Source of the DNA: a virus
Strand: one strand, 5' to 3'
Length of the DNA stretch: 29,024 bases
IMG/VR virus record: IMGVR_UViG_3300013094_000198
Span: 1-29,024 of that record
Part shown: piece after piece, positions 706-28,938 of the stretch
How the letters are laid out: the number at the start of each line of letters is the position of its first letter
Position numbering within the stretch: the first letter of the stretch is position 1
Notes under the pieces: model-generated
Seen by the model: only the letters and a program-made list of their open reading frames with translations
Told to the model about the DNA's origin: nothing
The model's database searches: none
Translations under genes and position numbers: made by a program

Positions 706-1236
706 ATGGATCTTTTGAAATCTTTCGGCCCATTGTTGGGTTCTGTCGCACCGACGATCGCAACCGCCCTCGGTGGCCCGGTCGCGGGAATGGCGGTGCG
801 TGCAATTTCGGGCGCATTGTTCGGTCATGAAAATGGAACCGAAGACGACATCATGTCGGCTTTGGCGAATCCAAACGGCGATCAGCTCGCCGCGCTGAAA
901 AAGATCGACGCTGACTTCAAAGTGCAAATGAAGTCACTCGACATCGATCTCGAACGCATTTCTGAACAAGACCGAGATTCCGCTCGCAACATGCAAATCC
1001 AAACGCGCGACTGGATTCCTCGTGTTCTTGCGGTCGGAGTCACGGTCGGCTTTTTCGGCATCATTGCTTACATCCTTCATTTCGGTTTGCCTCCAACGGG
1101 CGGCGAAGCATTGCTGATGCTCATTGGCACACTCGGCACTGCTTGGACAAGCGTAATGGGATTTTATTTCGGGTCGTCCGCTGGTTCGAAACAGAAAACC
1201 GAAGCTCTCACCTCTGCTTTGGGGAATAAGCAATGA
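706..1236 (+). CDS. Holin, GTA-type 3TM family
   Basis: A 176-residue holin candidate that would permeabilise the inner membrane so the following endolysin can act. Residues about 10-40 are Ala/Gly-rich and weakly hydrophobic. A charged helical stretch with several Asp/Glu/Lys/Arg residues covers 60-100. Two strong membrane segments follow at about 103-128 (WIPRVLAVGVTVGFFGIIAY) and 135-158. The end of the last segment, FYFGSSAGS followed by Lys, is typical of the 'holin of 3TMs, for gene-transfer release' family. A GAGAGGG ribosome binding site precedes the ATG. The gene overlaps the endolysin start by four bases (ATGA), the usual coupling for a lysis pair. Confidence 0.85.
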   Translation: MDLLKSFGPLLGSVAPTIATALGGPVAGMAVRAISGALFGHENGTEDDIMSALANPNGDQLAALKKIDADFKVQMKSLDIDLERISEQDRDSARNMQIQTRDWIPRVLAVGVTVGFFGIIAYILHFGLPPTGGEALLMLIGTLGTAWTSVMGFYFGSSAGSKQKTEALTSALGNKQ

Positions 1237-1745
1237 ATACGAATTTTGAACAATGCTTGGTTTTTCTTTTCAAAGAAGAAGGAGGCTACGTGAATGACCC
1301 GCTCGATCCGGGCGGAATCACAAACCTTGGCGTCACCAAGACAACTTGGGAATCATGGGTCGGCCATGAAGTGACAGAAAATGATATGCGTTCGCTCAAT
1401 CCTGGAATGGTTGCACCGCTTTATCGTGCGAATTATTGGAATGCTATTCATGGCGATAGCCTCCCTATTGGTGTGGATTATGCTGTTTTTGATTTTGCGG
1501 TCAATTCAGGAGTTCGACACGCCGCCGCAGCTCTCCAGCGGATTGTCGGAGCTGACGCAGACGGAGTGATCGGACCAGCAACTTTGTCTGCGGTTCAGGC
1601 AATCAATCCTGTTGACTTATCGTCGCAAATCTGCGATAATCGACTTGCGTATTTGCAATCTCTTCCTGGTTGGGCGCACGACGGACACGGCTGGTCAAAT
1701 CGGATTGCATTTGTTCGGCAAAATGCTATGAAAATGGCTGGGTAA
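1233..1745 (+). CDS. Endolysin, glycoside hydrolase 108 (lysozyme-like)
   Basis: A 170-residue peptidoglycan hydrolase. The N-terminus carries the GH108 signature EGGYVNDPLDPGG followed by TNLGVT; the expected catalytic acid is Glu16. The lysozyme-like core covers about residues 8-95, with the conserved LYRANYW and AVFDFAVNSG segments. The C-terminal part (about 95-168) contains LQRIVGADADGVIGPATLSAV, the peptidoglycan-binding half that usually accompanies this family. There is no signal peptide, so release through the upstream holin is expected. Length is normal for the family. The start overlaps the holin stop (ATGA). Confident call from the motif. Confidence 0.93.
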   Translation: MNTNFEQCLVFLFKEEGGYVNDPLDPGGITNLGVTKTTWESWVGHEVTENDMRSLNPGMVAPLYRANYWNAIHGDSLPIGVDYAVFDFAVNSGVRHAAAALQRIVGADADGVIGPATLSAVQAINPVDLSSQICDNRLAYLQSLPGWAHDGHGWSNRIAFVRQNAMKMAG

Positions 1746-5879: not shown

Positions 5880-6395
5880 ATGGAAAACGAACTGAACGTT
5901 CGGGTTGGAACACCCGAAGATGTTGACGGAATGATGCAACTCGCACTCGCGGCTTGCGAAGAAAACGGGTTGACGAACCCGAACCCGGCAAAGCTCTTGA
6001 ACGAGATCTGGGCCGGGTTAACGCGCCAGCACGGAATTGTCGGCATCATTGGTCGCTCCGGCGAGCAATTTGAAGCGGCGATTCTGCTCAGAACTGAACC
6101 TTTGTGGTATTCCGATGATTTAACGATTGTCGAACGCGCAATTTTCGTTCATCCTGACTATCGCAGTGCAAAAGGCGGCAGAGCAAGAAAGCTCTGTGAA
6201 TTTGCGAAACAGACCGCAGAGGTTTTGCAGATCCCGTTGGTTATTGGAATTCTCAGCTCTCAACGTGTCGAAGGCAAAGTTCGGCTTTATGAGAGACAGT
6301 TTGGCCCACAGTCGGGCGCTTATTGGATTTATGGCAAAAGAACAGGCGAGTGGGCAGAAGGATCTGCCTCCGCAGACAGTTTGACGGAGCATTGA
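5880..6395 (+). CDS. GNAT-family N-acetyltransferase
   Basis: A 171-residue protein with the GNAT plan. It has an N-terminal 'R-x-G-T-P-E-D-V' strand-helix, a strand before residue 80, then a segment matching motif A, which binds the acetyl-CoA pyrophosphate: HPDYRSAKGGRARKLCEFA at about 95-115 (R/Q-x-x-G-x-G/A). A following hydrophobic strand (IPLVIGIL) and a C-terminal aromatic stretch (GAYWIYGKR) complete the fold. The substrate is unknown. Such genes are commonly found among podovirus structural genes; modification of a virion or host protein is an inference. It lies three bases after the preceding stop, and one base separates its stop from the next ATG. Confidence 0.8.
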   Translation: MENELNVRVGTPEDVDGMMQLALAACEENGLTNPNPAKLLNEIWAGLTRQHGIVGIIGRSGEQFEAAILLRTEPLWYSDDLTIVERAIFVHPDYRSAKGGRARKLCEFAKQTAEVLQIPLVIGILSSQRVEGKVRLYERQFGPQSGAYWIYGKRTGEWAEGSASADSLTEH

Positions 6396-6396
6396 A

Positions 6397-9300
6397 ATGG
6401 GTGGCAAGACTGGGACGACGACCCAACAGGTATCTATTCCGCCCGAAGTATTGGCTCGATATAATTCGGTCAACGCTCAGGCTCAAACGACTGCGGCGCA
6501 GCCGTTCCAGCAATACAGCACAGACCCAAGTGCATTCGTTGCTCAAATCAACCAGCAACAGCAACAAGGCATTTCAGGCATAAATCAATATGCCAATGCC
6601 GCGCAGCCTTCTATTTCATATGCGCAAAATGCTTTCACGCCTCAAGGTTTCCAACAAGGCGTCGCAGGTTACATGAACCCATTCGTGAACCAAGCGATGG
6701 GCGCAACTGCCGCACAGCTTCAGAACGTCAATCAGCAACAGCAACAGCAATTGCTGGGCAACACAATCCAGCAAGGCGCGTTCGGTGGCGATCGTGGCAA
6801 CATCGCGCAAGCGGCGCTGATGAATCAGCAGAATCTCGCTTTGGGCAATACGTTGTCAAACATGGCCTCGCAAGGCTATCAAAATGCTGCTCAGAATTAC
6901 ATGACTGGCATGGGCAACATCGCGAATCTCGGAATTCAAGGCCAGCAAGCTGGTCTCAGCGGCGCTCAGGCTCAAATCGGTGCTGGCACCCTTCAGCAAC
7001 AAACACAGCAAGCTGGTAATACCGCACTTTACAATCAGTTCCTTCAACAGCAAGCCTATCCGTTTCAGGTGGCGCAATTCTTGGCGAATATTGCGGAAGG
7101 GACTGGGGCGCTTTCTGGCTCGACCACGACGACGCAACAGCCCATGCCGTTTTTCTCGGATCGTCGGCTCAAACATGACATCAAACGCATCGGTGAATCC
7201 GACAGCGGATTGCCGATTTATGCGTTCAAATACAAGCATGATCCGGAAGGCCACACGCATGTCGGTTTCATGGCGGATGAAGTCGAGCATGTTCATCCCG
7301 ATGCAGTCGGCCTCGCCGGTGGATACAAAACGGTCGATTACGACAAAGTTGCCAACGACAATGGCCGGGCGGAAGGCGGAGCCGTTGGGCCGCAGCATGC
7401 GGGCTTAGGGTTCATGGCCGGTGGCCGAGAGCATCATGCTTATGGCAATGCAGTCGGTTCGGATTACAATCCATACGACCCAAACAACATCCAGAATCTC
7501 ATCGCTCGCCAACAGGCCGCATTGTCGGCCGGGGAAGGCAGTTTCGTTCCGACAGCTCGTGCTTTGGCGAATGCAACCGGAAAAGCATCGCGCATTCCAT
7601 TGGAACAAAGCGCACATTATGGATTGCTAAAAGCGGAAGGCAACCCGGCTCAACATCCGACAGGCCTCGAACAAACGATGGGCGGTTTGAAAACCGCTGA
7701 AACAATCGCTGAAATGTTCAAGAACAATCCAAAAACTGGCGACAAGGGTTTTGTCACAATGTTGATGGATAAGATGGGAATGAACAAATCCCAGAACGCG
7801 GATCAAAATACCCAACAGAATCAGTCGCAAAATCCTCCTCCGGCAGCATCTTCTGCTGCGCCAGCATCTTCTGCTGCGCCAGCATCTTCTGCTGCGCCAG
7901 CGAAAACCTCCGACGCAGGGGTGGCGGCAACTCCCATGCCGCCGATGAATCCGGAAGGTCTCGCGAGCGCAGACTTTGCTCCGGGCGACGATTTGACTGC
8001 CGCGACAGGCGGAAGGATGCACCGCGCTTTCGGCGGCGGGGACATGCCTTACGAGGATGATTCCGGCGGAAAACTCGACATTCCGGATGAAAAGAACGGC
8101 GAAAAACTTCTGACAGCGCAAACTCCTCCCGGCGCTCAATCGCAAACTGGCATGGGAATTGGCGACGCATTGGCGCTCGCGAAATTTGCAATGATGTTCG
8201 CTTCCGGCGGTCGCACAGGCTATGCCGACACTGGTGCTGTGAGCGACGACAACCTTCCGACCTATTTGGATGCGCTCGGCAAAATCGAAAGCGGCGGAAA
8301 CTACGGCGCTCTTGGTCCAATGACCAAAAAGGGTGACCGAGCTTATGGCAAATATCAAGTCATGGGCTCGAACGTTGGCCCATGGACGCAAACGGCCCTC
8401 GGCAAAACGATGACTCCCGACGATTTTTTGGCTGACAAAGAAGCGCAAGATGCCGTCGCAAATCGCTATTTTGGTCAGGCTTTGAATAAATACGGCAATC
8501 CGCAAGATGCCGCTTCCGTTTGGTTCACTGGCAAACCGCTTGCGAAAAACACGCAACAAACTGCTGACATCACCGGCACAACGGTTCCGAAATACCTCCA
8601 ACGCTTCAATAAAGCCGCTGGCCTCGGACAAACCGCTGGTTTGGATCAAATCGGCGGCGACGGCTCGGATGAAAAACCAGCGTGGTTCCATCCTGAAGTC
8701 GCTGACTCTTATCAGCGTCTTCCTGGCTCGAGCCAATATGCAGAGGCCGACCTTCCGACAGCAACGAAAACGGTTGGCGGAACGGAAGAAGACGCACCCA
8801 CAGGCGGTCTCGCTCCGAACGCAGGTTACGAAGCCGCGAAAAAGTCTCTGAATCCGCCAAATGTTTGGAGCGACATCGGCAAAGTTCTCGGAGTTCCTGA
8901 AAAATATCAGGATTCAAATCTTTGGGTTCCGGCTTTGGCTGGGCTTGGCTCGATGCTTTCATCGCGTTCGCCTTATCTGTTGCCGGCAATCGGAGAAGGC
9001 CTCGTGGGTGGTGCGGCCGCATACACTCAACTCCAGCCTCAACAAGCTCAAACCGAGCAGACTCGCGCCGAAACGATGGCTGTCCTTCAAGGCATCCCAC
9101 GCGAAAACTTCCTTCCGAACGGCGACGTTTTGGTCGAAGGGCCGGACGGCAACCCAATTCCGATGGGCGCACAAGAATATTCCATTCTCAAACTCACCCA
9201 TCCGGATCAAATCAAACTCTGGAACTATGCAACAAAAGGCAAAGCAGGAACCGCAAAGGGCCTCGCTGGAGCCGCTGGCGACACCGGGACTGCGACGGGC

Positions 9301-10248
9301 CTCGGCGGAACAAAGACGCCTCCTGCAACCCCGCTCACGGGCGACGAAAAGGGTGTCGTGGAAGCCCCGGATCCCATGGCGCTTTCGGATGCAGAAAAAC
9401 AAGCGACTGCCGCAGAAGTTATTCAGCTTGCCGGCAAATATCGTAAATCGGATGGCTCGCCAGATCTCGCCTCGCTTCAAACGGTTCGTCCGAACCTCAC
9501 CAACACATATCGTCAAGCCGCTTTGGATGCGCAGCCGGTTCAAAAGAACAACGGCATTTATGCTGACATCCTGACATCGCGCGACGACCATGAATTGACG
9601 GGCGGCGGCAAATACGCTGAATGGTTCGAAGGATTGCGTTCATCGCTGGACGATATTTCCAGAAAATTTGGCGGACCCGGTTTTTATTATAAACAAGGTG
9701 CCGCCCTGGAAGAAGCGCAAAAGATCTACGCTCAAAATCTCGATGCCGCGCAAAAGGCTGGTGACAACCAGACTGTTGGCAAGCTGAATGTTCTCGCAAA
9801 AACTTATCCATGGTTGACGAACACACAGCTTGGCTCCGCGAAAAATATGGCGCAAATCATGGTCAATACGCAAGCGCCAATCGATCAAAATCGTCTCGCT
9901 CAGAACATGGTTTCGTCAACCGGGCAGGTTGGCAAATGGTTGCCGGAAAGCGAATATGTTGGTCAGAACTTTGCTGATCAATACAATCGCCGCGCTCAAC
10001 CGCTTCAAGCAAGAGAGACAACGGCTCTCGAAAAAATGATGACGACGCCGCCGCAAACAAAAACGGCAGATCCAATCAACGATCCAGAAACTGGCAAACC
10101 AATGCCGACGATGTTCTCGTTCCTTCAACGCTATGGCGACAAGCTGAACGGAAAACAACTGAAAGCAATCGCGGCTGAATATGGCGCCGATCCATCGATC
10201 TTCCGTTATTTCCCACGGATCCGCATGCAATACGCAGGAGCGCAATGA
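6397..10248 (+). CDS. Internal virion protein with S74-like chaperone core and lytic transglycosylase-like domain
   Basis: A 1283-residue multidomain virion protein. Residues 1-245 are Gln/Asn/Ala-rich with two poly-Gln runs, resembling a structural helical region. Residues 252-320 carry an S74 intramolecular-chaperone core: SDRRLKHDIKRIG (254-266), IYAFKYK, HVGFMADEVEHVHPDAVG and YKTVDYDKV. In tail spikes this family self-cleaves next to the conserved Ser. Residues 483-501 are an Ala-Pro-Ser repeat. Residues about 620-740 look like a transglycosylase: GKIESGGNYGAL with candidate catalytic Glu631, then AYGKYQVM and AVANRYFGQAL. The remainder is helical with several Gly-Gly-Arg motifs. The likely role is local cell-wall digestion during genome ejection, like T7 gp16 in concept. 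The stop overlaps the next start. Confidence 0.82.
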   Translation: MGGKTGTTTQQVSIPPEVLARYNSVNAQAQTTAAQPFQQYSTDPSAFVAQINQQQQQGISGINQYANAAQPSISYAQNAFTPQGFQQGVAGYMNPFVNQAMGATAAQLQNVNQQQQQQLLGNTIQQGAFGGDRGNIAQAALMNQQNLALGNTLSNMASQGYQNAAQNYMTGMGNIANLGIQGQQAGLSGAQAQIGAGTLQQQTQQAGNTALYNQFLQQQAYPFQVAQFLANIAEGTGALSGSTTTTQQPMPFFSDRRLKHDIKRIGESDSGLPIYAFKYKHDPEGHTHVGFMADEVEHVHPDAVGLAGGYKTVDYDKVANDNGRAEGGAVGPQHAGLGFMAGGREHHAYGNAVGSDYNPYDPNNIQNLIARQQAALSAGEGSFVPTARALANATGKASRIPLEQSAHYGLLKAEGNPAQHPTGLEQTMGGLKTAETIAEMFKNNPKTGDKGFVTMLMDKMGMNKSQNADQNTQQNQSQNPPPAASSAAPASSAAPASSAAPAKTSDAGVAATPMPPMNPEGLASADFAPGDDLTAATGGRMHRAFGGGDMPYEDDSGGKLDIPDEKNGEKLLTAQTPPGAQSQTGMGIGDALALAKFAMMFASGGRTGYADTGAVSDDNLPTYLDALGKIESGGNYGALGPMTKKGDRAYGKYQVMGSNVGPWTQTALGKTMTPDDFLADKEAQDAVANRYFGQALNKYGNPQDAASVWFTGKPLAKNTQQTADITGTTVPKYLQRFNKAAGLGQTAGLDQIGGDGSDEKPAWFHPEVADSYQRLPGSSQYAEADLPTATKTVGGTEEDAPTGGLAPNAGYEAAKKSLNPPNVWSDIGKVLGVPEKYQDSNLWVPALAGLGSMLSSRSPYLLPAIGEGLVGGAAAYTQLQPQQAQTEQTRAETMAVLQGIPRENFLPNGDVLVEGPDGNPIPMGAQEYSILKLTHPDQIKLWNYATKGKAGTAKGLAGAAGDTGTATGLGGTKTPPATPLTGDEKGVVEAPDPMALSDAEKQATAAEVIQLAGKYRKSDGSPDLASLQTVRPNLTNTYRQAALDAQPVQKNNGIYADILTSRDDHELTGGGKYAEWFEGLRSSLDDISRKFGGPGFYYKQGAALEEAQKIYAQNLDAAQKAGDNQTVGKLNVLAKTYPWLTNTQLGSAKNMAQIMVNTQAPIDQNRLAQNMVSSTGQVGKWLPESEYVGQNFADQYNRRAQPLQARETTALEKMMTTPPQTKTADPINDPETGKPMPTMFSFLQRYGDKLNGKQLKAIAAEYGADPSIFRYFPRIRMQYAGAQ
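7844..7897. repeat. Three tandem 18-bp units coding APASSA
   Basis: Three perfect copies of the 18-bp unit CAGCATCTTCTGCTGCGC lie head to tail, with a short partial copy after them. They encode repeated Ala-Pro-Ala-Ser-Ser-Ala inside the 1283-residue virion protein, between the S74-like core and the transglycosylase-like domain. The perfect identity at third codon positions points to recent slippage or expansion. It probably acts as a flexible linker. Confidence 0.9.
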
Positions 10249-12746
10249 TGAGTGATGATCCGTTTGGCGATATTGAATTTGCTGGAAAACCGAGAGGTGT
10301 TGCACCGCCCGAAGATCCGTTCGGCTCTGTCACTTTCGGTGCGCCACAAAAGCCGTTGCCGTTCGCTCATCAAGGCGAACCCGACAATACTCCTGCGCCT
10401 TCCGCCGCCGCAGGAACGCCGAGCCTTGTGCCACCGACCCCGGCTCCTTACGAAAATTATATGGGCCGGGTGAAATCCGCAGAGACTGGTCTCGCAAACA
10501 CTGCAATCAATGCGGCATACCGCATTCCGGACACGATCCAGCTTGCCAAGGACATTGGTTCGTTTGGTTACAGAAAACTGTTCGGCGAAGAAAAACCGCA
10601 GCAACCCGCTCCGACGGTTGCGCCGGGCGACGTGAATGCCTTGCCGCCGACAGCCTCGGAGGAAACTGCTTCGAAGGTTCGTCAGCGCATGGCTGAAGCT
10701 CAGCAATGGCAAGAAGAACATCCTGACGTTGCGGGGATGGCCGCTGGTTTTGGGTTCATGCCTTTGGGTGGGCCGCAAACTTCCGCCGAAGCGAAACAGC
10801 GCATGGCTCCTTATCTCTACACTCCTCAAACGGAGCAAGAGAAAAACATCGCTCGCGACATCGAGGCTGGTGGCACATGGGCCGCTTTGTCGCCGAAGTC
10901 CGCATTCGGAACACCTTTCCGGGCAGTGACCGGGGCTGGCCTCGAACAAGTTTCTCGCGGAGCCGAGGACATTATGCCAGGAGCTGCCCCTTTCATTCCT
11001 TTGGTCGGGCAAATCATCGGCGAATCAGGAGCCGGGACTTTCGCGACGTTGAATGACAGCGAATCGCGCTATGTCGAAGCATTGAAAAAAGCCTACGACG
11101 AAGATGTCCGAACAGGAAACATTGATCCGTCGAAAGTCACGCCGGACATGAAAATCACGGACATTCCGTTCAATCGTCCGGGTTCAAGTGCTTTGCGCAA
11201 ACTTGCGAAACAACAGTCTCAAGTCGCATCCGACACCAGCGACTTTGCAGAATTTAATCGCACTGCAAAAGGTGCGTTGGACCATGGCGAATTGCGTTCA
11301 AAACTGGCCAATGGAATCACGAGCGATATTGAAAATATCACCGGCATTCCATCGAACAAAGCTCTCGAAGCCCAGGATGCAATCAACGCGGAATTCAATA
11401 GCAGAAAGTCTGCTGCTTACGACGCCGCGACAAACAGCGCTCCCGGTCAAGCTGTTCCGAGAGATGTGTTTGGGGCTTATGCTGATGCGCCAATCGTGAA
11501 TGCGGCGGAAAAGCAGATTCAGGATGCCATTGCCAGCAACCCAAACAACCCTCGTTACAAAGGCATCGTTCCTCCGACCGACACTCAGCCGGGCAACTAC
11601 GCTTATTACGAGCAAGTTTATCGTCAGCTTCGCGACGGAGCATTTTTGAAAAATGCAAATCTGCCAACGGATGAAATAAACATCAGCAATGCTCGCGATG
11701 CTGCCAATGGAATAAAAACCGCCCTCGACAAACACATGACGGTCGATGGCCAATCGCTCTCGGCCAATGCGCGTGGCATCGCTCAGGATCATTTCAACGC
11801 AAACGACATCATCGGTGTCGGCGAAAATTTCCTGAACGAAGAACCACAAACTGCGAGCGAAGCGCAAGCCTCCGAGCGTGCTTTTGATAGTTTGGACCCC
11901 GACGAGCGTGCGGCCGCAACTTATGGTGCGCTCAACCAATTCAACAAAATCATCTCCGACGACAACAAAGGCGGATTGAATTGGGCCGCGAAAAAATTTG
12001 ACACGGACGCCACGTTCAATCGCAAAATGCAAATGCTGCTTGGCAAACGCGCCGCAGACGGATCTGTCGATCTTTCGGATTACGACGCATTGCGCGGCAA
12101 AGTTCTGGCAGCTCAAGCGAGAGCGAACATCCCACCATGGGACGTGGACCTGAAAAGTGCACCGCCTTCATTTGCTCAGCGCCACCCGAACATGATGACT
12201 GCAGTTGCTGCTGGCGCAGGAACAACTTTGCCAGTTGCTGCGAGCTATCTGCAAGATTTTCTCATCAATTCAAATCTCATGACAGCAGGTGGCCTCGCCG
12301 CAACCGGCGCATTGGCAGGAATGGGTGCGGCCGCAAAATTCGTCAACGATGCAGCAGTGAAGCGTGCAGCAAATGACATTGTGTTAAAAATGTCCACCGG
12401 CAATGTGCGAGACCTCGCGGAGCTTTCGCGCTTGACGAGAACCAATCCACTTTACGGTGCAGTTTACAGGGGAATTAACTTGGGCCTCGCAAACGAACAA
12501 AACTTGAGTTCCGACGACAAAGTTCGTCGCGGATGGAAAACAGGCGGTCGTGCTTTTTTCAAGGGCGGTCGCGTCGGACGCGCTTCCGGTGGTCGCACAG
12601 GAAAAGATCCGAAATCCGAAGCACAAAAATTGATTGCGCTTGCCAATCGTGTGAAAAACGAGCAAGGTAAAGATACTCAATCTTTGCTGAATCTCGACGA
12701 CACCACTGTCGCCAAAGCACTCGCTGTCGCGAACAAACACATATGA
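10248..12746 (+). CDS. Large internal virion (ejection-type) protein
   Basis: An 832-residue protein, probably a DNA-ejection or internal core protein. Residues 1-75 are Pro/Gly/Phe-rich with a repeated 'DPFG-x-I/V-x-F' element (twice), typical of disordered ends. Residues about 75-640 are mostly helical and charged. About 650-700 is a hydrophobic Ala/Gly-rich region (TAVAAGAGTTLPVAASYL, then GGLAATGALAGMGAAAKFV) that could insert into membrane. The tail end has three Gly-Gly-Arg motifs (GGRAFFKGGRVGRASGGRTG), then a helical segment ending ALAVANKHI, a finish I associate with large virion proteins of alphaproteobacterial phages. The ATG at 10248 is seven bases after AGGAG; the ATG at 10245 is only four bases after it, so I chose the former. 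No enzyme motif seen. Confidence 0.78.
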   Translation: MSDDPFGDIEFAGKPRGVAPPEDPFGSVTFGAPQKPLPFAHQGEPDNTPAPSAAAGTPSLVPPTPAPYENYMGRVKSAETGLANTAINAAYRIPDTIQLAKDIGSFGYRKLFGEEKPQQPAPTVAPGDVNALPPTASEETASKVRQRMAEAQQWQEEHPDVAGMAAGFGFMPLGGPQTSAEAKQRMAPYLYTPQTEQEKNIARDIEAGGTWAALSPKSAFGTPFRAVTGAGLEQVSRGAEDIMPGAAPFIPLVGQIIGESGAGTFATLNDSESRYVEALKKAYDEDVRTGNIDPSKVTPDMKITDIPFNRPGSSALRKLAKQQSQVASDTSDFAEFNRTAKGALDHGELRSKLANGITSDIENITGIPSNKALEAQDAINAEFNSRKSAAYDAATNSAPGQAVPRDVFGAYADAPIVNAAEKQIQDAIASNPNNPRYKGIVPPTDTQPGNYAYYEQVYRQLRDGAFLKNANLPTDEINISNARDAANGIKTALDKHMTVDGQSLSANARGIAQDHFNANDIIGVGENFLNEEPQTASEAQASERAFDSLDPDERAAATYGALNQFNKIISDDNKGGLNWAAKKFDTDATFNRKMQMLLGKRAADGSVDLSDYDALRGKVLAAQARANIPPWDVDLKSAPPSFAQRHPNMMTAVAAGAGTTLPVAASYLQDFLINSNLMTAGGLAATGALAGMGAAAKFVNDAAVKRAANDIVLKMSTGNVRDLAELSRLTRTNPLYGAVYRGINLGLANEQNLSSDDKVRRGWKTGGRAFFKGGRVGRASGGRTGKDPKSEAQKLIALANRVKNEQGKDTQSLLNLDDTTVAKALAVANKHI

Positions 12747-13034: not shown

Positions 13035-13748
13035 TCAGCTCCACATGGCAAAGTTGTCGATCGCAATTTCGCGAGTGACATAGACTTTATCTCGCATCGA
13101 AAACCGTGACAAATTAATGCGCTTAATTTGTTTTGAGCCGAGATAAAACATCACCATCCCAAGAACCATTGAGTCCCCGAAAATTGCGATGACGTCCCGC
13201 ACAGGGTTGAAGTCTTTCAGACGATGGACCATGGTCCATTCATATTTCGAACGCGCCCTTTCACCGACATGGCTGTCGAGGACCGGAAAGTCGGAAATAT
13301 AAATGAGCTCTTTCCCTATCTCGAGCAAAGGTTCCGTTTCGAATTTCATGTTCGGGTTCAAAGCGAACACGCGATCGTATTTTTCGCCTGATTTGATCGG
13401 GAGGTCTTTGGCATAAACCAAGGGCCGTGGTTCGGGGGCTTTTTCCACCGGAGTGAAAACAGGCTTCGCCCTCAGATCAGTTTCCGGATATTCGACGAGC
13501 TTGTATGATTTCAAATGTCTTGCGATTTCTTGGCCTCTTTCGTCTTTGAAAACAGAAAACACTTTTGAATTTTCAATCTCACAATAACGATTTGCTGCCA
13601 GCGTCGAAAGAGCTGCCGAAAGAGACGACTGATCTATTTTTGGGAAGGCACGCATGAGATCATGAATCGTCAACGAAGTCCCGAGAGGAACTTTGTGAAG
13701 CATCAATTTCACTTGTGCCAATACTGATGGATTATTAGGTAAACGCAT
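13035..13748 (-). CDS. Winged-helix-like phage protein, unknown function
   Basis: A 237-residue protein, the last gene of the leftward arm. Residues about 8-65 look like a winged helix: a helix, LTIHDLMRAFP, then a candidate recognition helix SSLSAALSTLAAN and a strand pair ending NSKVFSVF. Residues 65-130 are a charged, Pro-rich linker. The rest (130-237) contains beta-rich segments (ELIYISDFPVLDSH, DVIAIFGDSMVLGMVMFYLG) of no family I recognise. Its N-terminal module resembles the next upstream gene, suggesting duplication. An AAGGA sequence lies nine bases before the ATG. A DNA-binding regulator, perhaps of the late switch, is possible but unproven. Confidence 0.75.
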   Translation of the reverse strand: MRLPNNPSVLAQVKLMLHKVPLGTSLTIHDLMRAFPKIDQSSLSAALSTLAANRYCEIENSKVFSVFKDERGQEIARHLKSYKLVEYPETDLRAKPVFTPVEKAPEPRPLVYAKDLPIKSGEKYDRVFALNPNMKFETEPLLEIGKELIYISDFPVLDSHVGERARSKYEWTMVHRLKDFNPVRDVIAIFGDSMVLGMVMFYLGSKQIKRINLSRFSMRDKVYVTREIAIDNFAMWS

Positions 13749-13764
13749 ATTAATTTTCCTTTTT

Positions 13765-14034
13765 TCAAGTGATCAACGTGGAGATCCTTCCGTCAATATA
13801 ATAAACGGCTTTATGCCCACGACCGACTGGTGAGACCGTCACCAGATCGATTCCGTAAATCGACAGTTTGCCTCTGAGCTTGTTCAAAGAGGACATGATT
13901 GACTGTCGAAAAAACTTAGGCTTCTCACGAACACGACGGTTCATGGTTTTCATGAGATCATCAATCGTGAATTCCTGCGCAGCGTATTGCTGCATGAATT
14001 CAATCAGGAGCTTTTCACGAGTCGAAAATTTCAT
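13765..14034 (-). CDS. Small winged-helix-like protein
   Basis: An 89-residue protein. It consists of little more than a winged-helix-like unit: helix KFSTREKLLIEFMQQYA, then FTIDDLMKTMNRRV, a candidate recognition helix FFRQSIMSSLNKLRGKL, and a two-strand wing ending KAVYYIDG. The start at 14034 is chosen over an in-frame start at 14070 because GGAGGA lies seven bases upstream of it. It overlaps the end of the helicase gene by 20 bases. It shares its helix-turn-helix pattern (TI-x-DLM) with the following gene. A transcriptional regulator or replication accessory role is inference. Confidence 0.75.
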   Translation of the reverse strand: MKFSTREKLLIEFMQQYAAQEFTIDDLMKTMNRRVREKPKFFRQSIMSSLNKLRGKLSIYGIDLVTVSPVGRGHKAVYYIDGRISTLIT

Positions 14035-15715
14035 CGGCTTCCTCCAAGGTAATGAGCTTTCGGTATTCATCCAATGCGAGATCGGAAATAGATTTTTTGT
14101 CGCGCAAGTTTTTCAGGATCCGAGAGTCCGGAGATCCTTTTGCAACGAGATCGATATAAGTGACACTTCCAGTGGTTCCATCGCGCCAAGTTCGTCCTTC
14201 AGATTGCCATCTTGCAAGAGAATTGAAGCTGTTTGAATAATAGATGTTCGTCCGACAGAAACCCTGAAGGTTAAGTCCAGTACCCGCCGCTTCGGGTGAT
14301 GCCACGAGATAAGAGACGCTGCTTCCGGGATCGAGAAATGCCGCGATATTTTTTTGTCGGTCATTGTTGGATGTCCCTCCATAATAGTCCAAAGCTGATG
14401 GGCCGAGGGCTTTCATTACGCGCTTTATGTCTTCGTTGAACCTGCACCAGATGATTGCCTTGCCTTGACGTTGCTCCAGGACATTCAGGAGCGCCTCCAG
14501 CCGGGGGTTCGGCAGATCCCTCGCAATTCCGTTCTCATCCACAGCGAAACCGCAGGAGATCTGCTGCATGCGCGTCACGAGTGCGGCCGCATTCGGCACA
14601 GAGATCGCCGCGCCGCCAGCCGTCTGAGCCATGAACGTCTGACGCAGATCTTTCATCAGCTTTTTCTGTTCATCGCTCAAGGTGAATGGCTGCTGGACAT
14701 AAACCTTTGGCGGCAGATCCAAAACCTCGTCGGCGTTTATTCGGAAAATATGTGGTTCGATCTTTTTGTAAAATTCCTCGACGTTTTTGTGGCCGACGAT
14801 CTCGAGGCCGAACCCATTGTCGCGGAGCTGGCAATATCGCGCCCGGAACGTGGTCACATAGCGGTGGCCGAAAATTCGTTCGTCGAGGAACTTGAATTGG
14901 CTGAACGCATCGACAAGGTTTTTGGCAAGCGGCGTACCAGTCATTATCATCCGGTATTTGCATAAATTACCATAGCGGATGGCCATCTTGGTGCGAGAGG
15001 CCGAAATGTTTTTGATATCCTGCGATTCATCAATGATCATGGTTGCCCGACCATTGGCTGCTTTCAGGAACCGCAGGATTTTGGCTTCCGCCGGGCCAGT
15101 GATCAACGCATCGATATTGATTGCGAAGATCTTCAGGCCGTCGAATTTCATCATCTCCTCGAATTCGCGCTCGCCCTTTTTGGTTTTGTTCCAGACCCAA
15201 GCCTTCCACGGCACGACGTCCGACATGTGCTTTGGGATCTGTTCGTTCACCCATTGTGCATGAACGCCATTTTTTGCGACCAAAAGAACGTGGTCGGACA
15301 AATTGTCGCACCAGCGAATTCCCATCATCGCGATCCCGGTCCAGCTTTTGCCGGTTCCGATGTCCATGAACAGCCCGAAACAGCTGGGATATTCCCGCTT
15401 GTTGAACATTTTTTCGAGAGCCGTTTTCTGGTGGGCTCTAGGCGGCGTTTTGAAGGCGAAGGTGGGTCGGGGCTGCTCGAAGGCTTGGAAGCCGCTGGTG
15501 GCCTCCGTAGGGGCCGTAGCGCCGGTTCCGTTCTCGACTTTCGCAAACGGGAAAACAGATCTCCAGACTTCGAGGTTGTAGGGCGTGTTTTCGAACGTGA
15601 ACACTTTGCCCGAGGCCCATCGCTTTTGGCCTTCGAGCTTTGGCAACGCACGGATCATCCGCACGTCATATTCCGAGGTCGTCCGAACACGATTTCCATC
15701 AATGAGAATGTTCAT
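14015..15715 (-). CDS. SNF2-type DEAD/H-box helicase
   Basis: A 566-residue superfamily 2 ATPase acting on DNA. Motifs in order: 'RAHQKTAL' before the ATP site; Walker A GTGKS with Lys123; LLVAKNGVHAQWVNE (motif Ia); Walker B as IIDESQDIKN at about 227-236, where SNF2 proteins have DEAH; MTGTPLAKN (motif III) at about 258-266; then in the second RecA-like domain AIIWCRF, EAAGTGLNLQG (motif V) and RWQSEGRTWRDG (motif VI, arginine finger near 508-511). Phages use such enzymes in replication or recombination. I placed the start at 15715; an upstream in-frame extension of 59 residues is low-complexity and covers a hairpin region. An 84-base A/G-rich leader and a small CCGAA/TTCGG stem lie just before the ribosome binding site. 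Confidence 0.9.
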   Translation of the reverse strand: MNILIDGNRVRTTSEYDVRMIRALPKLEGQKRWASGKVFTFENTPYNLEVWRSVFPFAKVENGTGATAPTEATSGFQAFEQPRPTFAFKTPPRAHQKTALEKMFNKREYPSCFGLFMDIGTGKSWTGIAMMGIRWCDNLSDHVLLVAKNGVHAQWVNEQIPKHMSDVVPWKAWVWNKTKKGEREFEEMMKFDGLKIFAINIDALITGPAEAKILRFLKAANGRATMIIDESQDIKNISASRTKMAIRYGNLCKYRMIMTGTPLAKNLVDAFSQFKFLDERIFGHRYVTTFRARYCQLRDNGFGLEIVGHKNVEEFYKKIEPHIFRINADEVLDLPPKVYVQQPFTLSDEQKKLMKDLRQTFMAQTAGGAAISVPNAAALVTRMQQISCGFAVDENGIARDLPNPRLEALLNVLEQRQGKAIIWCRFNEDIKRVMKALGPSALDYYGGTSNNDRQKNIAAFLDPGSSVSYLVASPEAAGTGLNLQGFCRTNIYYSNSFNSLARWQSEGRTWRDGTTGSVTYIDLVAKGSPDSRILKNLRDKKSISDLALDEYRKLITLEEADEIFDS

Positions 15716-15805
15716 TCCGTTTCCATTCCGAACCTTAATTCGGCCCTTTCTCTTCTCTTTTCTCTCTCTAGAAAATCTGACAGCAACAGATGAAATAAGA
15801 ACTCT

Positions 15806-15850
15806 GGCGGAAACGGTACGTAACGATTTCAATGGGTTACCGTTCCCGCC
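15806..15850 (-). promoter_or_regulatory. Strong hairpin between DUF932 gene and helicase gene
   Basis: On the leftward transcript the arms GGCGGGAACGGTAAC and GTTACGTACCGTTTCCGCC pair along their length, with one G-U pair and a four-base bulge (CGTA), around an 11-base loop. It begins 13 bases after the DUF932 stop. The bases after it (AGAGTTCTTATTT) are only partly T-rich, so it may be a leaky terminator, an attenuator or an RNA-processing site that lowers helicase expression relative to the genes before it. Confidence 0.7.
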
Positions 15851-15863
15851 AAAATTTTCGGTC

Positions 15864-16838
15864 TCAGGCGGCGAGCTGGAGGAGCTCGTCACGCACCTGG
15901 AGCTTCAACTTTGCTTTGTCGCCGAACCATGCGTTGTAGAGCCTTGTTTCGGACTTGCTACCGGCGACGTGATCGGCCCAATGGGTGACGCCGTTGAGGA
16001 CACCCCATGCGGTCGCCGGGACAGCACCCGGAGCTTTTTTCACGGACCACAGGACCTCGTTGAGCCGCTTGTCCATCGCACCGGGATCGTTGATCAAGTC
16101 GTTGACCCACTCATCCTTGTCGTTCTGGGCGACGATCGTTTCCGGCATCGGCTGGAAAAACTTGCTCAGGAACCGAACTGTGTCGAATTCCGACATCTTG
16201 AGTTGGTTCAAAACCTTTGCATCGAGGCCAGCCTGAACGATCTGTTCACGAGCCAGACCAATTGTTTCCTTCGCGGCGGAGACGTTGAAGCGGGTCAGGT
16301 GGTTTTGCGAATAGTCTGCTTCCGACCCACGGAGGGCCATGGCCATGGTGTTGGCGCAGACAACCCGGACGACCGTCGTCCGGACGGTGATTGATTTGCC
16401 GACTTCATGCGGCGAGGTCAGCAGGATGTAACCTTTCGAATGATCCGTGCGGTTCACGGTGAACCCTTCTTGGATCGAGGCCAAGGCCCAAACCATCTTG
16501 CCGCCACGGAGCGAACCGGCTGTTTCGAGCTTTGCGCCACCGGCCTCTGTGTATTCACGGAAAAACTCGAGCGCGTCGCGGTTTTGGAACGGCTTCCACA
16601 TGTCGCCGGTGACAGTCATAATTTTGTTGTCGGAAGAACGCACGAGGGCGCGGCGGAGCGGGAGCTTGACCATTGAACCATCCGCCGCTTGAGCGAACAG
16701 GGGACGGAGCTGCACTTCCCAATTCAGGCCAGCCGCGACGAGCATGTCGTCCACGGACACGGTTGGATCGACGCGATTGCCGAGGCCATGCCAAGGAACT
16801 TCATTCGCGAATGCCATTGTTTCGATTTCGTGTGCCAT
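15864..16838 (-). CDS. DUF932 (phage/plasmid-like) protein
   Basis: A 324-residue protein matching DUF932, the phage/plasmid-like family with an unknown role near replication genes. It opens with 'MAHEIETMAFANEVPWHGLG' followed by the conserved Val-Asp stretch; the pattern 'P-W-H-G-L-G' is characteristic. Further conserved elements are TVTGDMWKPFQNRDALEFF at about 76-95, AGSLRGGKMVWALA at about 105-120, and VRVVCANTMAMAL at about 157-170. The C-terminus is helical and includes GVLNGVTHWADHVAGS. Length is normal. Strong hairpins precede (16875-16894) and follow (15806-15850) it, so it may be a separately regulated or stabilised mRNA segment. A weak AAGGA lies about ten bases before the ATG. 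Confidence 0.9.
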   Translation of the reverse strand: MAHEIETMAFANEVPWHGLGNRVDPTVSVDDMLVAAGLNWEVQLRPLFAQAADGSMVKLPLRRALVRSSDNKIMTVTGDMWKPFQNRDALEFFREYTEAGGAKLETAGSLRGGKMVWALASIQEGFTVNRTDHSKGYILLTSPHEVGKSITVRTTVVRVVCANTMAMALRGSEADYSQNHLTRFNVSAAKETIGLAREQIVQAGLDAKVLNQLKMSEFDTVRFLSKFFQPMPETIVAQNDKDEWVNDLINDPGAMDKRLNEVLWSVKKAPGAVPATAWGVLNGVTHWADHVAGSKSETRLYNAWFGDKAKLKLQVRDELLQLAA

Positions 16839-16874
16839 TTTACAATTTCCTTATCTAAAATTTTGGGTGAGGAT

Positions 16875-16894
16875 GGGCCGGGCGAACCCGGCCC
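16875..16894 (-). promoter_or_regulatory. Perfect 8-bp hairpin with UUCG loop
   Basis: On the leftward transcript the sequence is GGGCCGGG-TTCG-CCCGGCCC, an eight-pair, all G-C stem closed by a UUCG tetraloop. It sits six bases after the stop of the preceding gene and 36 bases before the DUF932 ATG. No T run follows, so it is not a standard terminator. It more likely marks a processing or 3'-end stabilising structure, or causes pausing. Confidence 0.75.
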
Positions 16895-16900
16895 GTTGGG

Positions 16901-17503
16901 TCAGTGCTTGATCGTCACGTTGCCTTTCGCGAGATCCCAAGCGAGATCTTGGCGACGGCCACCGGCTTCAATGAATGCTTCGTAGGTCACGCCTGGATTT
17001 TCCATGATGAAAGCCATGGCCTTGTATCCGAAGCCGCCTTCGCGACGAGGGTTTTCGGTCAGCCCTTCAACCGGATAGATCTTCACGCCAGCAAATTCCG
17101 ACGTGCGGCCGCGCTTGGCTTCAGTCGTTTCCTTCTTTGGGGCAGCAGCTTTGGCCTTTGCCTTTTTCAGCTCGGCCACGGTTTCCTTCACAGTTTCCTT
17201 GGTGGTTGTCATAGCAGGTGTCTCCTTTTGAATTGAAATGTGCTCAGCCTTGGCTTGAGCGAGAGTGAAAATCCGCTTCGCGGCAGTCGCCCGGTCAGCG
17301 AAGCTCTTCACTGGCTGGGTAGAGTTGTGGTGATTGTAGAACGTCACCATCTGCGACAAAGTTAAGCTCTCGTTTTTGGCGAGATCTTCTTCGTCGGAGA
17401 AGATCGTGAAGCCGTTGCCGTGTTTGCCGGCAAGGGTGCGTGATGGATAGGACAAGATTTTGCCAAAATCTTTGCCGCTGAAATAAGCAATAAAGGTTTT
17501 CAT
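16901..17503 (-). CDS. Two-module phage protein with internal start
   Basis: A 200-residue protein of unknown function. The N-terminal module (1-90) contains LTLSQMVTFYNHH and PVKSFADRATAAKRIFTL, a pattern common in small phage proteins ('x-V-K-x-F-x-D-R-A-T-A-x-x-R'). A Lys/Ala/Glu/Thr-rich linker spans about 95-140. The C-terminal module (about 143-200) has 'SEFAGVKIYPV', NPRREGGFGYKAMAFI and 'AWDLAKGNVTIKH', another small phage domain that can occur alone. The start at 17503 has GGAGGA just upstream and replaces a longer in-frame start at 17572. A second ATG at 17212 has AAAGGAG nine to ten bases upstream, so the C-terminal 103 residues are probably also made separately. It follows the 96-residue gene closely. 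Confidence 0.82.
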   Translation of the reverse strand: MKTFIAYFSGKDFGKILSYPSRTLAGKHGNGFTIFSDEEDLAKNESLTLSQMVTFYNHHNSTQPVKSFADRATAAKRIFTLAQAKAEHISIQKETPAMTTTKETVKETVAELKKAKAKAAAPKKETTEAKRGRTSEFAGVKIYPVEGLTENPRREGGFGYKAMAFIMENPGVTYEAFIEAGGRRQDLAWDLAKGNVTIKH

Positions 17504-17513
17504 CAATTCCTCC

Positions 17514-17804
17514 TCAAAACCGTGCTTCATAGTTGACGACGACCGAAGGCTCTTTTTCGACCTTGCAAGCATCGGACATCTTTTTGAATTCAGCGAGGGT
17601 CACGCCGAACGTCTTCATGACTTTGTCTTCGGACAGTTCGGTATTTTTGCGGAGTGAAACCAAAACGAGGAAATCCTGACCGACGATGCGGTCGGTGCCG
17701 GTGGCGACGATTTCCTTGTGGACTTCTTTGAGCTGAAGGGTGAGTGCTTCGATCTGGGACTTCAAAGCGCCATATTGGTCAGCGAGGGGAGCAGCATTCG
17801 ACAT
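17514..17804 (-). CDS. Small coiled-coil phage protein, unknown function
   Basis: A 96-residue protein: an N-terminal helix with coiled-coil spacing (LADQYGALKSQIEALTLQLKE), the link 'VATGTDRIVGQDFLVLVSLR', and a C-terminal helix that reads like a small domain of phage early genes ('K-x-F-G-V-T-L-A-E-F'). The start at 17804 is supported by GGAG eight bases upstream. An in-frame GTG at 17903 would add 33 residues but would run through the putative promoter motif, so I reject it. It is the first gene after that motif, with a leader of about 61 bases. No enzymatic motif seen. Confidence 0.78.
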   Translation of the reverse strand: MSNAAPLADQYGALKSQIEALTLQLKEVHKEIVATGTDRIVGQDFLVLVSLRKNTELSEDKVMKTFGVTLAEFKKMSDACKVEKEPSVVVNYEARF

Positions 17805-17865
17805 TTCAAATCTCCGTTTCAAAGGCCCGTGTTCGAATCGGCGGACCAGCCCGATGACATCCTTA

Positions 17866-17920
17866 TGCCTGAATTGTGCAGAAAAGAAAACGATTTTTTT
17901 CACATTCCGTCATCTTTTTT
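17866..17920 (-). promoter_or_regulatory. Copy B of a repeated multi-block motif, putative phage promoter
   Basis: Read leftward it has the ordered blocks AAAAAAGAT, 11 bases, AAAAAAA, 3 bases, TTTTCTTTTCT, 7 bases, TCAGGCA. The same blocks in the same order with nearly the same spacing occur at 28939-28992. It lies in a 130-base gene-free stretch and ends 61 bases before the ATG of the 96-residue protein. The A-tracts are spaced about two helical turns apart, which suggests bent DNA or an UP-like element. No good sigma-70 -35/-10 pair is present. Confidence 0.6.
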
Positions 17921-17934
17921 ATAAGTCGCTGTTT

Positions 17935-18150
17935 TCATTGCTTATTTTCGGTGGTTTTCTTGGGCTCTCGGCCCATTGAAAGGTTTGGCTGGAGCCGAAT
18001 TTTTGAATTCGGCCACGTCCAGCACTCCCCTGTGTCGTCCTGAAAACAAACCCAGAGCAGGTGGTGCTCTGGGCCATAATCGATGACAAAATGCGCCATG
18101 GCTCGGCCTTTGGGGGTTTCCAGCGGGAGCGGCGGATCAATACGGAGCAT
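17935..18150 (-). CDS. Small conserved phage protein
   Basis: A 71-residue protein. The core 'PPLPLETPKGRAMAHFVIDY' followed by a Gly-Pro-Glu-His, 'LLWVCFQDDTGECWTWPN' and a final 'L-S-M-G-R-E' reads like a well-known small phage family of unknown function, found near replication genes. Several aromatic residues and the T-G-E-C-W turn suggest a compact beta fold. AGGAAG lies about nine bases upstream of the ATG. It follows a one-TM peptide gene and precedes the copy B motif. Confidence 0.82.
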   Translation of the reverse strand: MLRIDPPLPLETPKGRAMAHFVIDYGPEHHLLWVCFQDDTGECWTWPNSKIRLQPNLSMGREPKKTTENKQ

Positions 18151-18168
18151 GGAGGGGCTTCCTGCGCT

Positions 18169-18357
18169 TCACCAGCGCTCTTTTAATTTTCGCAAGAAAC
18201 CCTTCTTTCGGCCCCGATAAGAAATCGACCACGGCAATGGATCGGGATCCATAGTGGATTGTGATCCGAGTTGGAACAGTTCGATGAGACACATCACCGT
18301 GAGCAATATCCCCGACCCGATCGCCGGAAGGAAAATTATGAAAAGCGCCCAATCCAT
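18169..18357 (-). CDS. Single-pass membrane peptide
   Basis: A 62-residue protein. Residues about 4-30 form one hydrophobic segment (WALFIIFLPAIGSGILLTV), and the C-terminal 15 residues are strongly basic (RGRKKGFLRKLKERW), expected to remain cytoplasmic. GGGAGGG stands eight bases before the ATG. An alternative start at 18361 in another frame is four bases from the same ribosome binding site but gives a non-hydrophobic product overlapping the next gene. Function is unknown; an early inhibitor or membrane factor is possible. Confidence 0.65.
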   Translation of the reverse strand: MDWALFIIFLPAIGSGILLTVMCLIELFQLGSQSTMDPDPLPWSISYRGRKKGFLRKLKERW

Positions 18358-18361
18358 TCAT

Positions 18362-18514
18362 TCAACCCTCCCAATTCAATGTGCAGTCGATGAATTCCCC
18401 TGTTTGATCGAATTCGACCCAACCACCAGACTTCAAACATTGGCCTATGAGACGCATCACCTTTTTGTAGGCTTTGCTTTTCAACCAAACTTTCGTGAAC
18501 ACGGTCTTTTTCAT
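18362..18514 (-). CDS. 50-residue early protein
   Basis: A 50-residue reading frame with a near-ideal ribosome binding site, GGAGGCGAAT directly before the ATG. The product starts MKKTVFTKVWLKSKAYKKVM and ends 'GGWVEFDQTGEFIDCTLNWEG'. It is basic at the N-terminus and acidic at the C-terminus. The stop touches the following start (TGAATGAATGG). The tight packing, the strong binding site and the lack of other coding potential make it a real small gene. Function is unknown; small phage early proteins often bind host factors, but nothing here shows that. Confidence 0.7.
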   Translation of the reverse strand: MKKTVFTKVWLKSKAYKKVMRLIGQCLKSGGWVEFDQTGEFIDCTLNWEG

Positions 18515-18531
18515 ATTCGCCTCCTTTTTTA

Positions 18532-23656: not shown

Positions 23657-23662
23657 TTTATT

Positions 23663-24193
23663 TCACACCACGCCCATTTCCCTGAGCCGCAAAAAGCAGC
23701 GAGTGGTTGCGCGGACATCTTGCTCGGCGCGGTGAGCGCCAGCAAAAGGTTCTCCGAACAAAAACTCATGCAGTGCGTTCAAGTTGAGGCGATGTCCTTT
23801 CATGTATTCAGTCGATTCAATCGTGCAAATGAGTTCCGGCCAGCGCACCTTTTTGCCGAGGCGTTTCATTTCGAAGTCGATGACTGCCTTGTCATAAGAC
23901 ATATTGTGTGCAACGATTTCGTCGTGAACCTCGATCAGCTCGAGGATGTGCTGAGCGATTGAGCTGAACGGCTTTTGGCCGTCCAGCATTTCTTGAGTGA
24001 TCCCGGTGATCTCGGTTGTTTTTGCTTCGATCTTTATTCCGGGATTGAAGAGGTAGTGAAACGACTCAAGCTCGTCTCCCGCGCTGTCGATGGACAACGC
24101 GAAAAACTCAATGATCCGTGGTTGACGGTCGAGAGGCTGGAGCTTGTTTTTTATGAGAGCGGTTGTTTCAGTATCCAGCACAAGCGTTCTCAT
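23663..24193 (-). CDS. DEDDh 3'-5' exonuclease (DnaQ/epsilon-like)
   Basis: A 176-residue exonuclease. All five catalytic residues are seen: Asp7 and Glu9 in LVLDTETT (Exo I), Asp101 in VAHNMSYDKAVID (Exo II), and His154/Asp159 in AHRAEQDVRATTRC (Exo III, DEDDh type). Length matches a single exonuclease domain, without the C-terminal alpha-binding tail of bacterial epsilon. It lies immediately before the polymerase and overlaps the upstream gene by four bases (ATGA). Proofreading in trans for the PHP-defective polymerase is the natural inference; general DNA turnover is an alternative. Confidence 0.93.
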   Translation of the reverse strand: MRTLVLDTETTALIKNKLQPLDRQPRIIEFFALSIDSAGDELESFHYLFNPGIKIEAKTTEITGITQEMLDGQKPFSSIAQHILELIEVHDEIVAHNMSYDKAVIDFEMKRLGKKVRWPELICTIESTEYMKGHRLNLNALHEFLFGEPFAGAHRAEQDVRATTRCFLRLREMGVV

Positions 24194-24567
24194 GATGCTT
24201 CAGCCTCGGGATGGTTTCCGAAAACTGCGATCTTCGGCAGCATCGCATCCGAAATGTCGGAAGTGATTTTGTTGTTCCGAGCTTCGACATCGAGCTCTTT
24301 CAGCATCATCGCATAAACTGCAATGTCATCGAGCGAGTCATCGTGTCCGCCATTCGCAAATGCGTTGCAATAGCGCGACATTTTCGAAAACAGCTGAACA
24401 AGAATTCCGAAACGATTGAAGTCATCCGGTGTGCGGAGGACCACGTTCGGAAAAAGTTGTTGCAGAGCGGGGCCGAATTTTTTGTAATTATCACCGTAGA
24501 TTTTGTTGCGTTGTTCATAGATCCCTGCTGCGTCGCGCAGCATATCCGGCACAGGTTTTCTCGCCAT
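24190..24567 (-). CDS. MazG/Nmad1-like phage protein
   Basis: A 125-residue all-helical protein. The pattern 'E-x-R-N-K-x-Y-G-D-N', then 'DDFNRFGILVQLFSKMSRYCN' and 'GGHDDSLDDIAVYAMML' matches small phage proteins related to DUF1599 (nucleotide modification associated domain 1) or DUF6378, which share the acidic helices of MazG-type nucleotide pyrophosphohydrolases (Glu/Asp residues around SLDDIAVY). The substrate is unknown. The ATG at 24567 is chosen because GGAGG lies eight bases upstream; a longer start at 24582 would overlap that site. The upstream stop TAA is one base before this ATG. It may clear or edit a nucleotide in the same pathway as its neighbours. Confidence 0.75.
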   Translation of the reverse strand: MARKPVPDMLRDAAGIYEQRNKIYGDNYKKFGPALQQLFPNVVLRTPDDFNRFGILVQLFSKMSRYCNAFANGGHDDSLDDIAVYAMMLKELDVEARNNKITSDISDAMLPKIAVFGNHPEAEAS

Positions 24568-24568
24568 T

Positions 24569-27241: not shown

Positions 27242-27489
27242 TGGCGCGTCTCATCTGGCTCATTGATGATTTGATTGATCATTTCACCGAGACCTTCGAT
27301 GAATGACATTTTTAAGTCGATTGGCATGTCGTAGGCTTCCGCTCGAACTCCAAACAAAAGGCCGACATGCGTTTCCGTCTCAACAATCGAGATCCGCAGG
27401 ATCTCAATTCCCTCCTGGACATTTTCACTTGTCAGCCCAATGTCATTGGTCTCGACCATCTCTTCGATGGTGATTGTTTTCTTTTTCAT
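27238..27489 (-). CDS. Small acidic protein, unknown function
   Basis: An 83-residue acidic protein. Its opening MKKKTITIEEMVETNDI leads into 'EGIEILRISIVETETHVGLLFGV', probably a beta-rich part, and a helical end 'LKMSFIEGLGEMINQIIN'. No family recognised. It overlaps both neighbours by four bases (ATGA at each end), which marks it as a genuine operon member. Its place between a conserved replication-region protein and the nucleotidase gives no clear clue to function. Confidence 0.75.
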   Translation of the reverse strand: MKKKTITIEEMVETNDIGLTSENVQEGIEILRISIVETETHVGLLFGVRAEAYDMPIDLKMSFIEGLGEMINQIINEPDETRQ

Positions 27490-28061: not shown

Positions 28062-28064
28062 CAC

Positions 28065-28871: not shown

Positions 28872-28938
28872 TTTCAACACTTTCTTGCCGACTTAGGTCT
28901 GGGACCATCCGAAACCATTTTTGCGGCTAGCCCAGCTT

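Follow-up and report, generated by a model that had tools for sequence, protein, structure and literature searches.

An open reading frame of 1283 residues in the 29,024-nucleotide stretch of viral DNA analysed here (the window) carries a short homologue of the peptidase S74 domain, complete with a Ser-Lys dyad, at the joint between a part that resembles a first ejection protein and a long, enzyme-like part. The best reading of this arrangement, to which we give a probability of about one half, is that the core is a self-cutting joint, which would free a 253-residue part from a part made up of the core and the enzyme, after the fusion of two ejection genes; a non-cutting structural role is rated below it. 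The cut proposed in a preliminary description of this DNA, which would fall before Ser254 and release a Gln-rich N-terminal part, fits the indirect evidence from sequence comparison, namely the dyad, the position at a joint and the places where relatives end. The features concerned are the following.

5880 to 6395, plus strand: GNAT-type protein adjoining upstream (phrog_1249 acetyltransferase, E 5.4e-5; PF13508, E 0.0019, below the cut-off)
6397 to 10248, plus strand: fused ejection-protein gene holding the S74 mini-core, 1283 residues (open reading frame; matches to PF13884, phrog_6121, phrog_4287 and phrog_24990)
6397 to 7155, plus strand: N-terminal part, residues 1-253, Gln-rich, predicted helical and like a first ejection protein (phrog_4287, phrog_6121; low-confidence model)
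7156 to 7356, plus strand: S74 mini-core, residues 254-320 (PF13884, E 1.1e-9; pLDDT about 80-93 per block of ten residues)
7156 to 7158, plus strand: Ser254, predicted nucleophile and first residue past the proposed cut (aligned with MYRF S587; 102 of 102 cores)
7171 to 7173, plus strand: Lys259, predicted catalytic base (aligned with MYRF K592; 102 of 102 cores)
8161 to 8202, plus strand: hydrophobic stretch, residues 589-602, of the kind that comes just ahead of the second core in two-core relatives, with no core after it here (by eye)
8248 to 8625, plus strand: transglycosylase-like stretch, residues 618-743 (phrog_24990, E 1.3e-21; tape-measure and minor-tail matches)
10245 to 12746, plus strand: 833-residue protein of the following gene, which by position alone takes the place of another ejection protein

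The window also holds a block of minus-strand genes (13035-28880), which includes a DNA polymerase III alpha-like gene (20786-23656), an exonuclease (RNase_T), a SNF2-type helicase, DUF5906, DUF932, Thy1 and Pam3 gp34-like genes, and a sub-threshold Pam3 gp32-like match.

The segment at 7150-7356 encodes residues 252-320 of the frame. PF13884 (Peptidase_S74) matches residues 254-304 over model positions 1-57 of 58, scoring 38.9 bits (cut-off 22; E 1.1e-9), so that the S74-like core reported in the preliminary description is real; this is the only PF13884 match in the window record, and NCBIfam returned no match for the two proteins searched. The mini-core is a short PF13884 homologue and not a classical tailspike chaperone, and its SDxxxK motif reads S254-D-R-R-L-K259. 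A profile built from 49 cores gave six matches among PDB sequences at E up to 10, namely the MYRF ICA (7dc3, 1e-4), a long tail fibre (6f45, 5.6e-4), a neck-appendage chaperone (3gud, 3.8e-3), a tail fibre (8jov, 0.084), an L-shaped tail fibre (8hqz, 0.19) and the designed protein ThreeFoil (3pg0, 3.3e-3), the last of which was taken to be unrelated and due to chance. A single-sequence phmmer search of the PDB with just the window core recovered one weak, unrelated match and none of the S74 structures. The alignment obtained with the 49-core profile places S254, R257, K259, F277 and Y279 on MYRF positions 587, R590, K592, Y615 and Y617 (MYRF residue numbers were counted from the printed alignment, in which position 587 is Ala in the solved mutant chain). 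According to excerpted text of PMC8326128, MYRF S587 and K592 correspond to S911 and K916 of endosialidase NF, the S587A and K592A mutants stay uncut, and S587A still folds and crystallises.

Among 218 loci, 200 cores were found in 192 ORFs, and the Ser and the Lys are present in every one of the 200, a sample biased by the use of core-containing queries in the four viral scans and of HMM seeds that carry SD. Removal of redundancy at 90% (ungapped, first 62 residues) left 102 cores, all of which have S254, D255, K259 and G290 as well as an aromatic residue at the position of F277; A293 is kept in 101, P301 in 100, V304 in 97 and R257 in 89. A fairer count than 200 of 200, though one of close relatives only, comes from a core-free query (residues 1-240; best 80 of 252 loci, many of the contigs being shared with the first scan), in which 77 of 81 ORFs with the N-terminal part have a core, with both Ser and Lys in 77 of 77, and the other four are truncated, by a contig end or an in-frame stop, before they reach the end of the core. 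The Ser codon is TCN in all 102 non-redundant cores, with all four such codons in use, against a share of 33% for AGY among the 4524 Ser codons of the same ORFs; this uniformity fits steady selection but also shared descent.

This degree of conservation bears on two alternatives. The preliminary description allowed for a structural relic, and a functionless remnant of a tail-fibre gene or of the gene fusion would be in keeping with relatives, both fused and separate, that have no core at all. We regard this as very improbable, given that S, D, K and G290 are unvarying across 102 non-redundant cores of very different phages and that the dyad is kept in second cores too. A far more serious rival, with a real but minority chance of being right, is that the mini-core is a structural module that does not cut, closing off the helical part as a compact cap or an oligomer contact and keeping it at a distance from the enzyme part. 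The structural-looking residues G290, A293, P301 and V304 are conserved as well as the dyad or nearly so, neither a coiled coil nor an upstream beta-helix is apparent, and two fused ORFs do without a core, all of which would suit such a module. However, a structural role by itself does not demand a dyad, and the Ser and Lys are invariant here and accompanied by aromatics that align with MYRF Y615 and Y617. Since MYRF S587A folds and crystallises, a purely structural role would leave the invariant Ser unexplained, which points to catalysis, an autoprotease still active at the joint being the most economical reading.

Comparison with other phages shows that the core is not oddly placed in an ejection-type protein: where the genes are separate, the first ejection protein ends in it, and in the window family it stands at the joint. 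Fifteen S74 loci were fetched from the phage collection, comprising 13 with separate genes (PAE2, RHph_N2, phiM5, ppBeUSDA76-2, AH02, Mwe-JY13, CRP-212, vB_OspP_OH, MW202496, phiGT1, pCB2047-C, RHph_I3_18 and Mae-JY35) plus MW202675, whose protein is long like that of the window (1185 residues, 'internal virion protein D'), and MT835830, a record without annotation. In the former 13 of the 15, the core is the C-terminus of proteins of 271-594 residues, with 62-83 residues from the Ser to the end. An acetyl- or acyltransferase gene, annotated or matched, lies directly upstream in 5 of these 13, and the downstream gene is annotated as internal virion, injection or muralytic-type in six (phiM5, AH02, vB_OspP_OH, MW202496, phiGT1 and pCB2047-C); the others carry the label hypothetical or tail protein. 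Gene order and profiles mark the core-bearing protein as the first ejection protein (the P22 gp7 slot) in several of the 13, and the record of phiM5 lists its counterpart as found in the particle proteome. Residues 3-228 of PAE2 gp13 match phrog_598 (E 5.7e-30) and its core begins at residue 240; P22 gp7, with 229 residues, has phrog_598 as its only PHROG match (E 2e-95), with no S74 family among its PHROG hits. At least in PAE2, therefore, the mini-core is an add-on at the end of a gp7-type protein. A BLASTP comparison of P22 gp7 with PAE2 gp13 gave nothing useful.

Where the ORF is complete at its C end (170 places), the distance from the Ser to the end is 60-90 residues in 95, 109 residues in one, 400-800 in two and at least 800 in 72. 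The case of 109 residues is the annotated tail fiber domain protein of ppBeUSDA76-2, a Bradyrhizobium phage with two S74 proteins (L086, 1508-2716 and 5119-6222), the other of which has a short core.

Residues 1-253 of the window protein most likely correspond to the first ejection protein, in the slot of P22 gp7. Against PHROG, the window protein matches phrog_4287 ('DNA ejection protein') over residues 1-319 and phrog_6121 (virion structural protein) over residues 70-320; each profile has 392 positions, and both matches stop at most 5 positions from the profile end, at the core. The P22 gp7 family, phrog_598, which PAE2 gp13 matches, was not matched by the window protein, and residues 1-252 as the sole query recovered one phage record, MW202675. 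The order of adaptor and stabilisation genes, GNAT-type gene and ejection genes in the window agrees with that of phiGT1, pCB2047-C, RHph_I3_18 and P22. No BLASTP similarity was found between the GNAT genes of the window and phiGT1, so the correspondence is one of gene order and not of homology. For the 833-residue neighbour downstream, PHROG gave no match and Pfam a sub-threshold match only.

The gene as a whole is most likely a fusion of two adjoining ejection-protein genes of a P22-like short-tailed phage. The part past about residue 340 would most likely be a muralytic ejection protein, and the mini-core the C-terminal domain of the first protein, retained for predicted catalysis at the joint. 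The transglycosylase-like part mentioned in the preliminary description was recovered at residues ~603-743, a stretch that resembles tape-measure and minor-tail proteins and matches phrog_24990 at 618-743. Pfam found no muralytic family in the window protein, nor in the relatives L049, L064, L078 and L194; it did find SLT (PF01464, 9.2e-15) in the fused ORF of L008 and glycosyl hydrolase 108 at residues 750-823 of that of L070. Glycosyl hydrolase 108 is also the family of a stand-alone lysin-type gene of the window (1233-1745). From gene order we infer that the fused C-terminal part descends from a separate downstream gene. The only profile common to the window protein and to the downstream genes of RHph_N2 and phiGT1 is phrog_24990, of which they match different stretches, and an HMM of 50 fused C-terminal parts recovered no separate downstream gene at E 0.01, which counts against the self-cutting reading.

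The frame of the window-family ORFs extends beyond the core, mostly for at least 800 residues (1030 from Ser254 to the end in the window protein). The core stands at the joint in 93 of the 95 ORFs with the joint motif, 19 of the 93 running off a contig end, and 29 of the 30 complete ORFs from the core-free-query scan extend at least 863 residues past the core start; the exception, with 444 residues, is from a contig with an in-frame stop. A frame error merging two genes was considered and dropped, as long single ORFs recur in many contigs. Single in-frame stops break otherwise long fused frames in L035 (near 502-505) and L036 (near 8055-8058). The joint is without a core in two of the 95, both of them long fused ORFs (L106, 5151-10311, whose N-terminal part has long internal repeats, and L107, 5982-9720), which indicates that the chain can work without a core or is handled otherwise. 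When genome contigs were scanned with N-terminal patterns, 9 of the 11 loci recovered had a core. A fused ORF with one core lies on a contig of a Bradyrhizobium cenepequi strain (L103, 5998-9339), a possible cultured source. Short Gly-rich motifs of the GG[RL].GYA.GG type recur in linkers around the joints (window residues 335-343 and 603-612, and many relatives).

The two parts might also be made separate by other means, either by an internal translation start or by a host or phage protease acting in the Gly-rich linkers. An in-frame ATG at window residue 541 does have a 5-of-6 Shine-Dalgarno match upstream, and the N-terminus of P22 gp7 is cut by the host protease OpdA according to a record note. 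Shine-Dalgarno matches are, however, likely in Gly-rich coding sequence (at least 5 of 6 positions past the core in 37 of 74 fused ORFs, versus 15 of 74 in the following stretch), and neither route explains the invariant dyad; we therefore consider both improbable.

Relatives with two cores and with none throw further light on the joint. A second core with the same dyad is present in eight long fused ORFs (L049, L064, L070, L078, L079, L101, L183 and L194). By eye, the residues directly ahead of it are hydrophobic or rich in Gly, and L049, L064 and L194 have a 'GYA' or 'GYQ' motif, also Gly-rich, behind it; the hydrolase domain of L070 lies downstream of it. At the corresponding place in the window protein, residues 589-602 run straight into the Gly-rich motif with no core between. 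Among relatives of the separate-gene family of Bradyrhizobium phage proteins, 24 loci without a core (19 distinct tails) end 14-26 residues past a shared anchor, and in 13 core-bearing loci of the same family (11 distinct) the Ser lies 12-35 residues past it. L164, for instance, ends in '...GSGVLGLLSLL', and L150 reads '...GSGLLGLLKW' followed by SDRRLKED. As the core-less relatives end near the position of the Ser, a protein resembling the expected cut product occurs in nature, although domain loss alone could account for these relatives.

In a model of residues 1-345 (mean pLDDT 63.8), the core reaches about 80-93 per block and the rest is poor, the upstream part being modelled at low confidence as long helices and not as a beta-helix; a model of the core only has a mean pLDDT of 79.5. 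With VIA-align, the core model matched 7dc3 first (Z 4.0, 2.4 A, 56 residues, the dyad lying outside the aligned range) and 3gud second (Z 3.3, 3.5 A, 57 residues), with unrelated kinases close behind at 3.0. VIA matches to the 1-345 model were mostly of long helices to model residues 76-174, and Foldseek found no match at E 0.001 or better for either model. A coiled coil is absent, as the sequence past the window core is Gly-rich and mini-cores that are complete at the C-terminus have 60-90 residues from the Ser onwards, which makes the trimerisation implied by the S74 name doubtful. In MYRF, a C-terminal coiled coil drives trimerisation and is needed for cutting (excerpted text of PMC8326128). 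The missing coiled coil is the main weakness of the self-cutting reading, to which the core-less L106 and L107, the predicted helical upstream part and the weak fold searches must be added.

If the joint does cut, several chains would assemble first, brought together by the N-terminal helices or by assembly around the portal, as otherwise the core may not cut. Lys259 would then serve as the base for an attack by Ser254 on the Phe253-Ser254 bond, in the manner of MYRF and endosialidase NF. The N-terminal part would be freed and the core would stay at the front of the 1030-residue enzyme part, as in MYRF, so that the two parts would be able to leave the virion separately. A fused chain must either separate or leave as one, and a cut before Ser254 would amount to separation.

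The C-terminal mini-core has already been noted by annotators, as S74 or chaperone of endosialidase, in the records of phiGT1, phiM5 and PAE2. In the open-licence literature, no paper was found on S74 in ejection proteins, on its internal position there or on two-core proteins; the main text of PMC10386132 does not mention S74, chaperone or endosialidase, and PMC10783043 names, in a listing of gene groups that are shared, a 'chaperone of endosialidase' next to an acetyltransferase. A broader proposal, to which we give not quite an even chance, is that S74 mini-cores are self-cutting joints of the ejection polyproteins of short-tailed phages, with one or two cores, and cut without a coiled coil. 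Cutting of this kind would (i) mean that some phages build their DNA-injection machine by a polyprotein strategy, (ii) show that about 65 residues, a minimal form, suffice for the S74 protease to work outside fibres, (iii) explain why several such ejection proteins are annotated as 'tail fiber domain-containing protein', 'tailspike' or 'chaperone of endosialidase' and (iv) offer a simple way to ask, by a Ser-to-Ala change, whether ejection proteins have to be separated before they can exit the virion.

The MYRF ICA (7dc3) is among the known systems closest to the window core. Both have SDxRxK, the Ser-Lys dyad and aromatics at the positions of Y615 and Y617, and both lie inside a chain; when MYRF is cut, its N-terminal part is set free from a remainder that retains the core, as would be the case here. 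However, MYRF is a eukaryotic membrane-bound transcription factor in which a beta-helical stalk lies upstream and a triple coiled coil is C-terminal, and its domain spans S587 to K705, whereas the window core belongs to a phage protein without the coil. Endosialidase NF, GA-1 gp12 and Bdellovibrio Bd3182 share the domain and SDxxxK with the window core, and in Bd3182 this motif cuts and an S-to-A change abolishes cutting. In tailspikes and fibres, the S74 domain sits at the end of a trimeric beta-helical fibre, from which it is released by the cut, whereas the window core is internal, short and placed behind a predicted helical part. phiGT1 gp17 (Sulfitobacter), phiM5 gp27 (Sinorhizobium) and PAE2 gp13 (Pseudomonas) have the same mini-core as the window, but as the C-terminus of products of separate genes, where a cut would shed 64-78 residues only. 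In gene order, P22 gp7 and gp20 and T7 gp14, gp15 and gp16 occupy the same slot as the window gene, with a first ejection protein followed by the others. In T7, the first ejection protein forms an outer-membrane pore and the others a periplasmic tunnel, a transglycosylase part and an inner-membrane part (excerpted text of PMC8954989). The T7 ejection proteins thus include a muralytic domain, as the window protein probably does, but the P22 and T7 genes are separate, unlike the fused gene of the window.
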